From Candidatus Fermentithermobacillaceae bacterium (GTDB taxonomy: Bacteria > Bacillota > Sulfobacillia > Fermentithermobacillales > Fermentithermobacillaceae), in NCBI GenBank assembly GCA_012842685.1, contig DUSI01000048.1:1-39801 (forward strand): DNA of 39,801 nucleotides. Reading direction: 5' to 3'. Of this stretch, positions 6,006 through 11,732 are shown piece after piece. Position numbers and translations under genes: made by a program. The notes beneath the pieces were generated by a model, which saw nothing but the letters and a program-made list of their open reading frames with translations, was not told the DNA's origin and searched no databases. Each line of letters starts with the position of its first letter. Position 1 is the first letter of the stretch.

Positions 6006-7004
6006 TTGGGGGTTTGTCCGTTGGATGACTTCTTGAGAGAGCTCGAGAGCCTGAGAAAGGCGATAGATGAGGCCATGGAAAGGGCCATATCCGGCTATCC
6101 GTGCGACGTCCCGCTCATCCGGGAAGCCATGGCCTACGCTTCCGAAGGAGGGAAGCGCCTGAGGGGCGCCATCGTCCTATCTACCTTTGAGAGCCTGGGC
6201 GGCAGAGGCGACGCCACGCCTTTCGCCCTGGCCATCGAGATGATACAGGCCTATTCCCTCGTGCACGACGACCTGCCTTGTATGGACGACGCGGAGATGC
6301 GTCGCGGACGGCCTGCTTGCCACCGAAAGTACGGAGAGGCCATGGGAGTCCTGGCGGGAGATGCGCTTCTCACCCTGGCGTTCGAGACGGCGGCTACCTC
6401 AGACCTGCCGCCATACAGAGTGGTGGAAGGGATAAGGGCCCTGGCCTACGGCGCCGGTGCAGCCGGTATGGTGGGCGGGCAGGTGCTAGACTTAGGGCCC
6501 GGGACGGATGGATCCCCAGGGAGCGCGAGCGGCGCGCATCTCCCTGGAGCGGAAGGTTCCGTGACCGAAGCGCAGGTCCTTGGGGCGGCAGAAACAGGAG
6601 GGACGCGGGAGGCGTCTGGCTCGTGGCCCTCACTTAACGATGGCGCCGATGCGGTGCGGCTCATGTACAGGCTCAAGACCGGTAAGCTCTTCGAGACCGC
6701 GGCCAGGCTTGGGGCGATCCTCGCCGGAGCACCTGGAGACATCGTCCGTAAGGCCGGCGAGGCGGGCATGAGCTTCGGTTTCGCCTTCCAGATCCTAGAC
6801 GACATTGAAGACGCCTCCCAAGGTGGCGCCGAAGATCAAAAGGACACCCTGCCCAAGAGGATATCTGTGGAGAAAGCCCGCGAAGAGGCCGCCGAGGCTT
6901 TGAGAAGATGCAAGAAGCTTGTGACGGAGTGCGGTGGACCGGACTTCTTGCTGGCGAGGCTTGCTGACTACTACTTGGCCAGCAAGTTGGGGTTGGCACC
7001 GTAA
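6006..7004 (+). CDS. ispA: Farnesyl/geranylgeranyl diphosphate synthase with a linker insertion
   Basis: This short-chain prenyltransferase condenses isopentenyl diphosphate with allylic diphosphates. The first aspartate-rich motif is DDLPCMD (residues 88-94) and the second is DDIED (265-269); GKRLRG near residue 49-54, GGQVLDL (157-163) and KTGKL (224-228) also fit. At 332 residues it is roughly 40 longer than usual. The excess lies between GGQVLDL and the KTG motif, in a Gly/Ala/Ser/Pro-rich segment of residues about 165-212. AGGAGG (5996-6001) supports TTG at 6006; TTG at 6021 is an alternative with better spacing to GGGGG (6008-6012). Product chain length cannot be told from sequence by eye. 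Confidence 0.93.
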   Translation: MGVCPLDDFLRELESLRKAIDEAMERAISGYPCDVPLIREAMAYASEGGKRLRGAIVLSTFESLGGRGDATPFALAIEMIQAYSLVHDDLPCMDDAEMRRGRPACHRKYGEAMGVLAGDALLTLAFETAATSDLPPYRVVEGIRALAYGAGAAGMVGGQVLDLGPGTDGSPGSASGAHLPGAEGSVTEAQVLGAAETGGTREASGSWPSLNDGADAVRLMYRLKTGKLFETAARLGAILAGAPGDIVRKAGEAGMSFGFAFQILDDIEDASQGGAEDQKDTLPKRISVEKAREEAAEALRRCKKLVTECGGPDFLLARLADYYLASKLGLAP

Positions 7005-7047: not shown

Positions 7048-7096
7048 AACATCTAGCATCTCGCATCTAACATCTAACATCTAACATCCAACGTCT
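7048..7096 (+). repeat. Seven tandem copies of a 7-bp unit
   Basis: Seven consecutive heptamers of consensus AACATCT fill 7048-7096: copies 1, 4 and 5 are exact, and copies 2, 3, 6 and 7 each differ by one or two bases. A further partial copy lies upstream around 7033. The array begins 43 bp after the ispA stop and is not part of any reading frame I accept. Confidence 0.85.
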
Positions 7097-7264
7097 GGTA
7101 GCCAACATCGTAACGTTGCAACAGCCGCAGCATCGCGATCCTGCGGTATGACGACATTGCCACTTTGCGACGATTACAGCATCGGACATCTTGGACAACG
7201 CCGGGCGGCACGCGCAACCGACATTTGAGCGGTTGATCAAATGTCACGAAATGTACTGTTTGGA

Positions 7265-7308
7265 CCGGTCATGGGGCATATTTTGTACATTGCCCCGCCA
7301 GTGACCGG
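7265..7308 (+). other. Imperfect long hairpin upstream of the OLE promoter
   Basis: CCGGTCA (7265-7271) pairs with TGACCGG (7302-7308), and GGGGCA (7273-7278) pairs with TGCCCC (7291-7296), with a 12-nt loop containing TTGTAC. One base on the left and five on the right are unpaired. It could be a terminator of the ispA transcript, an operator, or the 5' part of a longer OLE transcript if that starts upstream of 7390. Confidence 0.55.
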
Positions 7309-7389
7309 CAAGAAATGTACAATTCCGAAGCGGTATTGTGCAAATTGTGATAGTTGCTCAATCGTCCCATCGACGGAAAAGACCGCTCC

Positions 7390-7418
7390 TTGAGACAAAA
7401 CCGCAGGTAGAGTATAAT
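7390..7418 (+). promoter_or_regulatory. Sigma-A-type promoter for the OLE RNA
   Basis: TTGAGA (7390-7395), an exact 17-bp spacer and a perfect TATAAT (7413-7418) form one of the best vegetative promoter matches in the window. Transcription should begin near 7424-7426, just before the 5' strand of the proposed closing stem of the noncoding RNA at 7429. It could also drive oapA and dxs. Confidence 0.75.
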
Positions 7419-7423
7419 TTCAT

Positions 7424-7935
7424 ACGTGCTCCGAGTGGGCGCAGTATTCTAGTGGGCCTGACCATCTCCAAGGCGGGGCTAAAAATCCGTCACGGGCCAT
7501 ACCGGTTCGCCCTGGAGACCGGCCGGTTGCGCCCAGCTTCCGGCCTCTTTAGGGAAGAGGAAATCAGGGAAACCTACAATGGCATGTAGGTCCGAGCCCT
7601 GGTTTCGTGGGACAGACGTCCCGGCGGTTTGATCCCCTGTAGTCCCTTGGGGAATGGCCTGCCTTGAGTGGCCGGGTAGGAAGGTCCCTCCTGAAAACCC
7701 GCGCTGCAAGAAAGGCTAGAGATGGGGGCCTTTGAGGAAAACTCCTAGACTGTCCTTGAGCGGGCGCTTGCGGGGTTGCGGTGTGGACTAAGTGGTGATC
7801 CAGCGCTGCCGGCGGCGACGCGGCAGGCCGGCCTTAAAGGGGAACCGCCGGGAGCGAAAGCACCGGTTGGCCGGTGGGAAAGCCTGCTGGACCTCAAGTC
7901 ACAAGATTAACCGCAGGCGCTGCCCCTCGGAGGAG
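7424..7935 (+). ncRNA. Probable OLE (ornate, large, extremophilic) RNA
   Basis: OLE RNAs are long structured RNAs of Gram-positive anaerobes and extremophiles, typically encoded between ispA and oapA; they bind OapA at the membrane. This gap has exactly that context. No ORF here looks real. Local hairpins are plain: 7544-7560 (CCTCTT/AAGAGG), 7572-7591 (ACCTACA/TGTAGGT) and 7609-7622 (GGGAC/GTCCC). A GCGAAAGC tetraloop-type element lies near 7856. CTCCGAG (7429-7435) plus GGGC pairs with GCCC plus CTCGGAG (7922-7932), giving a closing stem with small bulges. The implied length, about 510 nt, is below the ~600 nt usual for the family, so the 5' end could lie further upstream. Boundaries are inferred; no covariance search was possible. 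Confidence 0.75.
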
Positions 7936-7945
7936 CTGGAAAGGC

Positions 7946-8497
7946 ATGGGCAGGAAGAAGAAAGTTAGGCGTTTCGCGGTCGGGACGCTCGTTTTCGCCC
8001 TCAGCGCCTTCCTCTTGACCTTCGCCATGAACCTCACGTTTGAAAGGCTCGCAGAGGCGATCCCTCCGGTTTTTGGGGTGCCTCTTTTTTTCTTAGTCAT
8101 TTTGTTTGGTATCATGAGTGACGCCGTGGGGCTTGCGGGGACACGCGCCAAAGAGGAAGCACTCCTTTCGATGGCGTCGAGGAGGGTCCCCGGCGCGAGA
8201 GAGGCAGTCTGGTTTGTGCGGAACGCATCCAAGGTATCGTCCGTCTTTAGCGATCTGGTGGGAGATGTCTCGTCCACCATGGCCGGGGCTCTGGCTGTGG
8301 CCCTGGTTTTCAAGGCCAGAGAGATGATACCGGTGGCCAACTTGGCGGTCGCGACCAGCATCGCCGTGGGGGTAGCCTCCATGTTCAGCGTTGGGGGCAA
8401 GGCACTTTTCAAGCCCCTGGCTTTGAAGTACGCTGAAAGCATAGTCCTGCTTCTCGGCAAGATCCGTCGAAGGATTGTACGGGAGAGGAAAAGATAG
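7946..8497 (+). CDS. oapA: OLE RNA-associated membrane protein OapA
   Basis: The 183-residue protein is very basic at its start (GRKKKVRR) and end (KIRRRIVRERKR) and has four hydrophobic segments at about residues 11-28, 33-53, 110-127 and 134-155. The central soluble part carries FGIMSDAVGLAG, TRAKEEALLSMAS and RRVPGAREAVWFVRNA, a pattern shared with OapA and distantly with DUF21 membrane domains of CNNM/CorC-type proteins. OapA binds OLE RNA, and the complex has been linked to magnesium, cold and alcohol stress. The ATG at 7946 is preferred; GTG at 7874 would lie inside the RNA. GGAGG (7929-7933) is 12 nt upstream, rather distant. Position between the RNA and dxs is the classic arrangement. 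Confidence 0.85.
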   Translation: MGRKKKVRRFAVGTLVFALSAFLLTFAMNLTFERLAEAIPPVFGVPLFFLVILFGIMSDAVGLAGTRAKEEALLSMASRRVPGAREAVWFVRNASKVSSVFSDLVGDVSSTMAGALAVALVFKAREMIPVANLAVATSIAVGVASMFSVGGKALFKPLALKYAESIVLLLGKIRRRIVRERKR

Positions 8498-10381
8498 ATG
8501 CCAAGCAACCTGGGTATTACCTCACCAGAGGACCTAAAGCGCCTGTCGCCCCAAGAGCTCCGGGCGCTGGCAAAGGACATCCGCGACCGAATAATTGAAA
8601 CCGTTTCCAAGAACGGAGGTCACCTGGCGTCGTCCCTCGGCGTGGTCGAGCTTACCCTGGCGCTCCACACTATCTTCGATGCGCCGAGAGACAAGATAGT
8701 CTGGGACGTGGGTCACCAGGCCTACGCCCACAAACTGGTGACGGGCCGGGACCACGTGTTTCACACCCTGAGGAAGCTCGGGGGGATCTCCGGGTTCCCC
8801 AAGCGCGCGGAAAGCCCGTACGACGTGTACGACACGGGGCACGCCTCAGGCTCCATATCCTACGCGCTGGGTCTCGCCATGGCCCGGGACCTAAAGGGCG
8901 AAGACTACCACGTCGTAGTCGTCATAGGAGACGGCGCCCTTACGTCGGGCGTCGCGTTCGAAGGGCTGAACAACGCCGGCGGGCTGGGGACGAGGCTCAT
9001 CGTGGTCGTGAACGACAATTCGATGTCTATTTCGGAAAACGTAGGAGGCCTATCTTTCTACTTCACGGCCCTCAGGATGGCGCCCGCCTACAGGTCTGCC
9101 AAGGCGCGGCTTGAGAAGGCCCTGGACAAAATGCCCAACCTGGGACCTGCGGCCGTCAAGATGCTCCGGAGGGTTAAGGGGAGCATCAAGCACTTCTTGT
9201 TCCCTGAAGCCTGGTTCGAGGCGCTTGGATTCAGCTATTACGGCCCCATCGACGGGCACGATATAGAGGCGATGCAGCGGGTTTTCCAAGACGCCAAGGC
9301 TCTGGAAGGTCCAGTGATAGTCCACGTGGTGACCAAGAAGGGCAAAGGATACCCTCCCGCAGAGAAGGATCCCGAAAGGTACCACGGTCCGGGTCCATTT
9401 GACCCTGCGACGGGCGAGATATTCAAGAAAGACGGACCGCCCGCCTGGAACAAGGTTTTCGGAGAAGCCATGTGCGAGTTCGCCAAGTCCCATCCCGGTC
9501 TCGTGGCAATCACGGCCGCCATGTGCGACGGCACAGGGCTCGGGGAGTTCAAAGAGAAGTACCCTGACCGCTTCTTCGACGTAGGTATCGCAGAGAGCCA
9601 CGCGGTGACGTACGCCGCGGGGCTGGCCCAAGGAGGGCTTCTCCCGGTCGTTGCCATATACTCGACTTTCCTCCAGAGGTCCTACGACCAAATAGTCCAG
9701 GATGTAGCCCAGCAGAACCTCAAGGTAGTGTTTGCCATCGATAGAGCAGGACTTGTCGGAGAAGACGGAGAAACCCACCACGGCGAGTTTGATCTTAGTT
9801 ATCTGCGAACGGTTCCCGGCATGGTCGTGATGGCTCCCAAGGACGAGAGAGAATTGGTGAACATGCTGTTCACCGCCCTCAAAGTCCCCGAATCGTGCGC
9901 CATACGGTATCCGAGAGGACCGGCCCCCGGAACGCCTTACCGGGATGCCCTAGCGAATCCCGAGATATTGGAGGTAGGCAAAGGCGAAGTACTGTCGCGG
10001 GGAAAAGACGCCAACATACTGGCGGTGGGAAGCACCGTCTACCCCGCGCTACAGGCGTCAGAGATCCTGTCTAAGAGCGGCGTTTCCTGCGGCGTGGCGA
10101 ACGCCCGGTTCGTGAAACCTTTGGACCGGGAGATGATAGGCGAGCTTCTCAAGGCTGCGCCGCTTCTGGTTGTTGAGGAAAACGTGTCGGCGGGAGGTTT
10201 GGGGGAGGCTGTGCTGAGCGAGGCGGCCCGTGCCGGCCATCGCGGCGTGGCGGCCATCTCTCTGCCGGATGCTTTCGTGCGGCACGGGTCACAGACGGAA
10301 CTCAGGAAACTGACGGGGCTGGACGCGGAGTCCATTGCCGAGGGTGTCCGGCGCTTGCTCAAGGAGGTTCATGACCGTTAA
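8498..10381 (+). CDS. dxs: 1-deoxy-D-xylulose-5-phosphate synthase
   Basis: Dxs joins pyruvate and glyceraldehyde 3-phosphate in the first step of the MEP isoprenoid pathway, using thiamine diphosphate. The 627-residue length is typical. Visible motifs are the N-terminal SSLGVVELTLALH, the TPP-binding GDGALTSGVAFEGLNNAG with VVNDNSMSIS, the transketolase pyrimidine domain with DVGIAESHAVTYAAGLA, and DRAGLVGEDGETHHGEFDL. The ATG starts directly after the oapA stop. The 3' end overlaps nadK by 11 bp. Together with ispA upstream it forms an isoprenoid pair flanking the OLE locus. Confidence 0.97.
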   Translation: MPSNLGITSPEDLKRLSPQELRALAKDIRDRIIETVSKNGGHLASSLGVVELTLALHTIFDAPRDKIVWDVGHQAYAHKLVTGRDHVFHTLRKLGGISGFPKRAESPYDVYDTGHASGSISYALGLAMARDLKGEDYHVVVVIGDGALTSGVAFEGLNNAGGLGTRLIVVVNDNSMSISENVGGLSFYFTALRMAPAYRSAKARLEKALDKMPNLGPAAVKMLRRVKGSIKHFLFPEAWFEALGFSYYGPIDGHDIEAMQRVFQDAKALEGPVIVHVVTKKGKGYPPAEKDPERYHGPGPFDPATGEIFKKDGPPAWNKVFGEAMCEFAKSHPGLVAITAAMCDGTGLGEFKEKYPDRFFDVGIAESHAVTYAAGLAQGGLLPVVAIYSTFLQRSYDQIVQDVAQQNLKVVFAIDRAGLVGEDGETHHGEFDLSYLRTVPGMVVMAPKDERELVNMLFTALKVPESCAIRYPRGPAPGTPYRDALANPEILEVGKGEVLSRGKDANILAVGSTVYPALQASEILSKSGVSCGVANARFVKPLDREMIGELLKAAPLLVVEENVSAGGLGEAVLSEAARAGHRGVAAISLPDAFVRHGSQTELRKLTGLDAESIAEGVRRLLKEVHDR

Positions 10382-11255: not shown

Positions 11256-11276
11256 GCCGGACCTGGAGGGATTTTG

Positions 11277-11732
11277 GTGAAGGCAAAAAGGCAAATGAAG
11301 ATCATTGAACTGGTGACACAGAACGTCGTCACCAGCCAAGAAGCCCTGTGTGAGGCGCTTGCTCGCGAAGGCATTAAAGTCACCCAGGCTACCATTTCCC
11401 GGGATATCAAAGAGCTAAACCTCGTTAGGGTCCCTTCCGGAGACGGCCGGTACAGGTACGCCCTCATGCCGGGAGACCCTTCATCCGTATACCGCGAGAG
11501 GTTCAAGAAGCTTTTCGCCGACTGCTGCCTGGATATGGAGAGTTCGGGCAACATCATCCTGGTAAGGACCATCGAGGCTACCGCTCAGGCGGTGGGGCAA
11601 GCCATAGACGCCCTGAACCTCCCGGGGATCCTGGGCTGCGTTGCGGGCGACAATTCGGTGCTGGTCGTGGTGCGTGAAGGCGTCACCGCCCGTGAAGTGC
11701 TCGAGTCCCTGAGAAAAATTGCAGGGCTGTGA
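11277..11732 (+). CDS. argR: Arginine repressor ArgR/AhrC
   Basis: The 151-residue product has an N-terminal winged helix with TSQEALCEALAREGIKVTQ followed by ATISRDIKELNLVRVP, and a C-terminal hexamerisation and arginine-binding domain with GTIEATAQAV-like VRTIEATAQAVGQAIDAL and GCVAGDNSVLVVV. It represses arginine biosynthesis and activates catabolism in an arginine-dependent way. GTG at 11277 is 6 nt from GGAGGG (11265-11270); TTG at 11274 is only 3 nt away. Placement between nadK and recN is standard in sporeformers. Confidence 0.95.
   Translation: MKAKRQMKIIELVTQNVVTSQEALCEALAREGIKVTQATISRDIKELNLVRVPSGDGRYRYALMPGDPSSVYRERFKKLFADCCLDMESSGNIILVRTIEATAQAVGQAIDALNLPGILGCVAGDNSVLVVVREGVTAREVLESLRKIAGL

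Follow-up and report, generated by a model that had tools for sequence, protein, structure and literature searches.

A compact OLE RNA with reduced accessory sites between ispA and oapA in Candidatus Fermentithermobacillaceae

Introduction

OLE is a large bacterial RNA located at the cell membrane and is among the largest RNAs with unknown biochemical function. The corresponding Rfam family (RF01071) is represented by Halalkalibacterium halodurans and Clostridium acetobutylicum. A GAUGA strand in J4a/5 forms the k-turn used by OapC (PMC9723947), OapB binds P13 (the binding site being that summarised in other papers), the palindrome of the L9.3 kissing loop is GGCC (PMC12286853), and P3 has been proposed to cross the membrane (PMC12265935). 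Shortened OLE RNAs have already been published for other clades: variant 1, which occurs in many clades, has short P7, P8 and P9 and often lacks the P13 nucleotides of the OapB site, and its description is based mainly on reduced gut symbionts (TANB77), which are largely devoid of OapC (PMC11332333). The same study reported that the Mg2+ exporter MpfA anticorrelates with OLE (PMC11332333).

In this study, we analyzed an OLE locus of Candidatus Fermentithermobacillaceae, which belongs to a class that was proposed to hold uncultured fermentative bacteria, predicted to form spores, from hot ground and thermal digesters (PMC10215811). The window, that is, the whole stretch of DNA analyzed, comprises 39,801 nucleotides (contig DUSI01000048.1), and its genome was compared with 60 relatives belonging to the same order or to the same class outside the order (class-mates). 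With the canonical OLE RNA (RF01071), the locus shares the ispA-OLE-oapA-dxs context, OapA, the A-rich loop L4, L5 and L6, P3, P4a, the P12 loop and the closing stems, whereas the compact form differs in its short P7, P8 and P9, the absence of L9.3 and of GAUGA, the inverted closing pair of P13, and a genome without OapB. With OLE variant 1 (TANB77-type; Fernando and Breaker, 2024; PMC11332333), it has in common the short P7-P9, the altered OapB site in P13 and the missing OapB; however, it comes from another lineage whose members are not gut symbionts, keeps the OapC gene and has a rewired J4a/5-J7/8 region, TANB77 being compared by its description only. Both the short P7, P8 and P9 and the loss of OapB-site nucleotides in P13 (closing pair inverted in 14 of 14 order OLEs) are found, and the RNA in the window is an OLE class member that fits the text definition of variant 1. 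Variant 2 (RF39-type) shares a reduced domain 1, but P7 and P8 are entirely absent there and are short hairpins here. Finally, the CNNM Mg2+ exporters MpfA/CorB share the fold of the transmembrane domain with the OapA model, although CBS and CorC_HlyC are absent from OapA.

Results and discussion

Identity and transcription of the RNA

An earlier note made from the sequence of the window alone had placed an OLE RNA locus at 7424-7935, within a 0.94 kb gene-free gap between ispA and oapA, and had proposed an Rfam covariance search as a check. This search gave a highly significant match to RF01071 at 7420-7942 (score 281.9 bits, with the gathering score at 50; E = 3.5e-79), only a few bases off the interval of the note, and the distance from the ispA stop (7004) to the oapA ATG (7946), which contains OLE, was 941 nt. 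The match spans model positions 1-616 of 616, namely the complete model, so that the RNA exceeds the curated threshold of the family across its full length; it was also the sole RNA family match within the whole window. Open reading frames of 60-240 aa that cross the interval on either strand had no support as genes. By the model, the compact OLE measures 523 nt, compared with the usual ~600, and the promoter and the fold together suggest a transcript of about 503-523 nt starting near 7424-7426. The surrounding gene sequence is gltA-like oxidoreductase-xseA-xseB-ispA-OLE-oapA-dxs-nadK-argR-recN-spoIVB-spo0A. Feature coordinates are collected in Table 1.

Table 1. Features of the OLE locus in the window
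Feature	Position	Strand	Evidence or remark
ispA, upstream neighbour	6006..7004	+	
Sigma-A type promoter of OLE, TTGAGA-17-TATAAT	7390..7418	+	11/12 consensus bases
OLE RNA (RF01071), compact form	7420..7942	+	Covariance match, full model
P1/P2 5' strand, partner ~7922-7935	7427..7440	+	Columns 8-21/639-652, at least 7 compensatory pairs
P3 5' strand (GGCC..CCAUCUC), proposed membrane-crossing helix, partner 7719-7731	7454..7468	+	Columns 35-49/429-443, most pairs compensatory
P4 hairpin, invariant L4 CUAAAAA (dimer bridge B1)	7472..7491	+	14/14
P4a 5' strand, partner 7654-7660	7494..7500	+	Columns 75-81/360-366
J4a/5, without GAUGA; ACCG 7501-7504 pairs with CGGU 7625-7628 (proposed helix P4b)	7501..7509	+	
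P5/P5.1, L5 GCCCA at 7531-7535 (dimer kissing loop)	7510..7554	+	Sequence, conservation, covariation
P6/P6.1, L6 CAAUGGCAUG at 7577-7586 (dimer kissing loop)	7560..7606	+	Model alignment, conservation, covariation
P7, 5-bp hairpin (GGGAC-AGAC-GUCCC)	7609..7622	+	Sequence; Rfam P7 stretch falls to a local end
P8, 5-bp hairpin	7633..7653	+	Sequence; model alignment
P9 stem, truncated arm 7669-7705 (37 nt), L9.3 kissing loop (bridge B3) missing	7661..7716	+	
Closing stem of domain 2 (7763-7773/7911-7921) and contents	7763..7921	+	Columns 478-488/628-638
P12 loop GGCGAC, conserved	7814..7819	+	14/14
P13 hairpin, loop GCGAAAGC (7854-7861), OapB-binding region	7846..7869	+	Replaces GGYRAC of class-mates
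oapA, 183-aa CNNM-like membrane protein	7946..8497	+	D103, D107 invariant
dxs, downstream neighbour	8498..10381	+	

The promoter had been called excellent in the earlier note; shuffled sequences contained 0.5 promoter-like sites on average. Each of the 11 OLE loci in the family has a match of 10-11 of the 12 bases at a similar distance, although the surrounding sequence has diverged. No intrinsic terminator was found between OLE and oapA, which lie 3-50 nt apart within the order. The only Shine-Dalgarno-like sequence before oapA, GGAGG at 7929-7933, is located inside the 3' strand of the covarying P1 (7922-7936 with 7427-7440). Because this stretch is joined to the 5' end of OLE by P1, the folded RNA may hide the Shine-Dalgarno sequence of oapA, and processing or breathing of P1 might conceivably set oapA translation, although the Shine-Dalgarno spacing of 12 nt weakens the case.

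Retained core and OapA

Covariation was assessed with the RNAalifold consensus of the 14 order OLEs (alignment A2). The consensus contains 152 pairs, 61 of which show compensatory change on both sides, a count that is supportive and not a probability because an alignment-based consensus leans to its own structure. At the sequence level, these compensatory pairs argue for selection on the OLE fold. The single-sequence fold of the OLE in the window had a z of -3.17, and long invariant stretches are present in the order OLEs. P3 retains 11-12 pairs with many compensatory changes; P4a, which is presumably the OapA-binding region as in H. halodurans, and the closing stems are likewise retained. The closing stem described in the earlier note reappears in the alignment, where both sets of closing-stem columns (8-21/639-652 and 478-488/628-638) covary. 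The sequences of the putative dimer-contact loops, L4 CUAAAAA, L5 GCCCA and L6 CAAyGGCAUG, are conserved in 14 of 14 order OLEs. With regard to P6, we make no claim about loss of the anti-Shine-Dalgarno mimic (bS21 site), where class-mates also vary.

Adjoining the RNA is a small basic membrane protein with four segments (27 K/R vs 11 D/E), whose OapA features the earlier note had correctly recognized. Residues D59, G62, D103, D107, K152 and K156 are invariant in 39 of 39 sequences, and D103/D107 correspond, by spacing alone, to the D100/D104 pair of H. halodurans, the spacing being the same. The nearest named relatives are from Candidatus Fermentithermobacillaceae MAGs. The predicted structure (mean pLDDT 86.4) superposes on the CNNM transmembrane domain of MtCorB (7m1t; Z 13.6 over 127 residues at 1.9 A), and the next unrelated structure scored 8.1, which suggests that OapA adopts the CNNM fold. 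OapA and OLE occurred together in 54 of the 61 genomes and were both absent from the other 7. In several class-mates (G048, G042, G060 and G023), oapA was located on another contig or far from OLE; thus, the pair is sometimes unlinked.

Reduced and rewired accessory sites

When the window and eight order-mates were aligned to the covariance model, P7 and P8 were either reduced or fell outside it, and 3-5 nt stood in for the terminal 44-48 model positions of P9. The P9 arm was 36-39 nt long in all 14 order OLEs, and none of them contained a self-complementary GGCC, GATC or AGCT, whereas GGCC was present in 22 of the 24 long P9 arms of class-mates; that is, the arm with a self-complementary L9.3 loop is lacking in the order. 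Such an arm is not required for OLE membership, since five class-mates with an otherwise standard OLE are also short-armed (G022, G024, G030, G040 and G047). All five keep OapB and the k-turn. Hence the loss of the P9 arm appears to be a separate event, and its coupling to OapB loss was rejected. Three members of genus g4 (L035, L038 and L039; G006, G011 and G012) have, instead of a short P7, a P7 region enlarged by ~55-110 nt with repeat-like sequence, together with a short P8 and P9, so that P7 seems to tolerate insertions.

The OapB-binding region is altered throughout the order. The P13 loop reads GCGNRAGC with an inverted closing pair in 14 of 14 order OLEs, in contrast with GGYRAC in all 37 parsed class-mates (the count leaves out the unparsed G023 and G038), and a P13 loop of the OapB-binding type is therefore absent from the order. 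The loop of P12, which is similar, is conserved in 14 of 14. A search with a dedicated six-sequence OapB profile, whose query was recognized by its match to solved OapB (7k9b), found no OapB in any of the 17 order genomes and found it in all 40 OLE-bearing class-mates outside the order. Matches were obtained in 41 genomes, the weakest at E = 2.6e-17, and no weak tail was observed within the order. The Pfam KOW search returned mainly L24 and NusG-like proteins and was hence not used for judging OapB. In class-mates, the OapB gene sits between map and infA, a slot that is closed in the order members examined.

The GAUGA strand of the k-turn was present in none of the 14 order OLEs, compared with 39 of 39 class-mates; this k-turn at J4a/5 is a feature of the full-length OLE and is not required by the published variant definitions. 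In the consensus fold, J7/8 (CGGU in the window; CAGGU, CGGC or GGGC elsewhere) pairs with what was the k-turn strand (ACCG; ACCUG, GCCG or GCCC), forming the proposed helix P4b. The mean pairing energy was -8.1 kcal/mol for native partners vs -5.9 kcal/mol for swapped partners, the native assignment ranked first of 120 permutations across five genera/families, and none of 300 shuffles reached it. The same segments in 32 class-mates had a mean of only -2.9 kcal/mol. In the window, two registers are possible (with CGGU 7625-7628 or CCGG 7621-7624), neither of which is present in the single-sequence minimum-energy fold; the register using CGGU is compatible with P7. Re-use of the k-turn strand as a covarying helix with J7/8 is thus supported, but not proven, by sequence comparison.

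An OapC orthologue is encoded in all order genomes at the usual rpoC-rpsL position. Here, OapC-like matches were used if they lay at this position or bore the motif, and one match of another type (G052) was excluded. Within the G-x-K/R-Q/E-T/S motif, A or S replaces Q/E in family f1, whereas Q is kept in family f2. Since f2 lacks the k-turn strand and still has Q, parsimony suggests that the loss of the k-turn is older than the change in OapC. The simple view that the Q-to-A change merely follows k-turn loss was unsupported, as f2 has lost the strand and keeps Q. Outside the order, OapC of OLE-less genomes keeps Q or E.

Distribution of OLE and MpfA

OLE was detected in 284 of 398 sampled genomes of the phylum, and the two order members in this sample had the weakest OLE matches, split or partial hits aside. 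Genus g3, of the same family, accounts for 3 of the 7 genomes without OLE and OapA. In g3, synteny is kept across xseB-ispA-dxs, with just ~65-75 bp between ispA and dxs, which indicates that ole and oapA were lost together and cleanly.

A CorC_HlyC (MpfA) match was found in 15 of 17 order genomes, compared with 5 of 40 OLE-bearing class-mates (Fisher p = 7.5e-8, ignoring shared descent); like every contrast at the level of the order, the difference reflects one or a few evolutionary changes, and the genomes counted are therefore not independent of each other. The genome of the window itself (G000) encodes a CNNM-CBS-CorC_HlyC MpfA of 474 aa on contig C17 (locus L096). The MpfA gene overlaps a second CNNM-CBS gene (376 aa) that lacks CorC_HlyC. 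It is plausible that MpfA could relieve OLE of part of a Mg2+ role. Such a transfer, and that it would have made the stripping of the RNA tolerable, is the least certain element of our interpretation. We found no report of the J4a/5 rewiring or of OLE-MpfA coexistence in the parts of the OLE literature available to us, in which variant 1 is represented by its text.

Interpretation and alternative explanations

Taken together, the interval very probably encodes a functional compact OLE whose accessory sites have been stripped, with OapA and the dimerizing core kept. The function considered here would be that known from H. halodurans, from which, together with the cryo-EM studies, it is transferred by analogy. 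OLE would be transcribed from its own promoter together with oapA, and OapA would anchor the RNA at the membrane via P2/P4a, with P3 crossing or lining the membrane. Two OLE copies may pair through L4-L4 and L5-L6, and the resulting particle could tune stress responses as in H. halodurans. The particle of the order would be a stripped one, in which OapB is gone, the P13 loop is altered, the P9 arch is cut off and the OapC k-turn strand has become an RNA-RNA helix, P4b, between J4a/5 and J7/8; accessory protein contacts would thus have been dropped and partly replaced by RNA-RNA pairing. With the accessories stripped and the core intact, selection appears to keep OapA and the dimerizing core of the RNA. 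The suggestion in the earlier note of a reduced or divergent OLE agrees with the short P7-P9, the altered k-turn and P13 sites and the weakest scores in the phylum sample; from one sequence, a reader could not tell that it is specific partner sites which have gone, nor that the reduction accompanies OapB loss.

The order's OLE could also be regarded as a decaying, nonfunctional relic heading to the loss seen in g3, and it is true that its full-model scores are the weakest in the phylum sample, that several partner sites are gone, and that g3 has cleanly lost ole and oapA, leaving an ispA-dxs gap of 65-75 bp. However, decay would be expected to break pairs and promoter at random, whereas the 61 compensatory pairs, the long invariant stretches and the promoter are kept, and OapA is intact with invariant acidic and basic residues. 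The preservation of L4, L5, L6, P3, P4a and OapA, along with the compensatory pairs, indicates that the RNA is not decaying, and we consider the relic hypothesis highly improbable. It is somewhat less improbable, but still unlikely, that OapB and the k-turn are in use in a disguised form, OapB having diverged past the profile and J4a/5 forming a noncanonical k-turn. A diverged OapB could escape a profile built from six sequences, and OapC orthologues are present in all order genomes. Nevertheless, OapB was recovered by this profile from 41 genomes at E values up to 2.6e-17, and the order showed no weak tail of matches. The order members examined have a closed map-infA slot, which is the canonical place of OapB, the GA strand is absent in 14 of 14 RNAs, and OapC of f1 lacks the Q/E of the recognition motif.

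A quite possible explanation is that the OLE in the window is plain published variant 1 with nothing else special about it, as short P7-P9 and the lost OapB site are all present (PMC11332333). On the other hand, unlike in TANB77, OapC remains at rpoC-rpsL; genome prediction depicts the hosts as free-living, spore-forming fermenters (PMC10215811); and the RNA described here, TANB77 being known by description, has a rewired k-turn strand. A more far-reaching scenario, which we offer only tentatively and with some doubt, is that OLE became independent of OapB and of the OapC k-turn (the strand becoming P4b) while Mg2+ export passed to MpfA, so that the order would record the succession from full to stripped to lost OLE, the last in g3. 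Two observations weigh against our interpretation of a stripped particle with a rewired k-turn strand: f2 keeps the Q of the OapC motif, so that the change in OapC does not track k-turn loss exactly, and P4b has two registers in the window, neither of them in the minimum-energy fold.

If the compact OLE is functional, an order that retains OapA, P3, P4, P5 and P6 but is devoid of OapB, the P9 arch and the k-turn distinguishes core parts from accessory ones, and would provide a natural test of which OLE parts are essential, with the OLE-less sister genus g3 as the matching negative. Coexistence of OLE and MpfA allows the proposed replacement of OLE by MpfA to be tested by comparison. In addition, the compact RNA may be better suited to complete structure determination, domain 2 included.

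Other features near the locus

Several minor features were noted around OLE. IspA has an insertion of ~45 residues near residues 164-210, which splits its polyprenyl synthetase match in two, and directly 3' of its gene is a degenerate tandem heptamer (AACATCT, about 5-7 units) at 7048-7096. Upstream of the OLE promoter, at 7240-7320, an inverted repeat (ACCGGTCA..GGGGC / GCCCC..TGACCGG) lies between AAATGTAC direct repeats. A 74% copy of it was found elsewhere in the same genome (G000 C63:28417-28515) and none in the two genus-mates searched; it may represent a small mobile element. Four genes downstream of OLE, at 11274-11732, is the gene for ArgR, which has been reported as an unpublished OLE-binding protein (PMC12265935).
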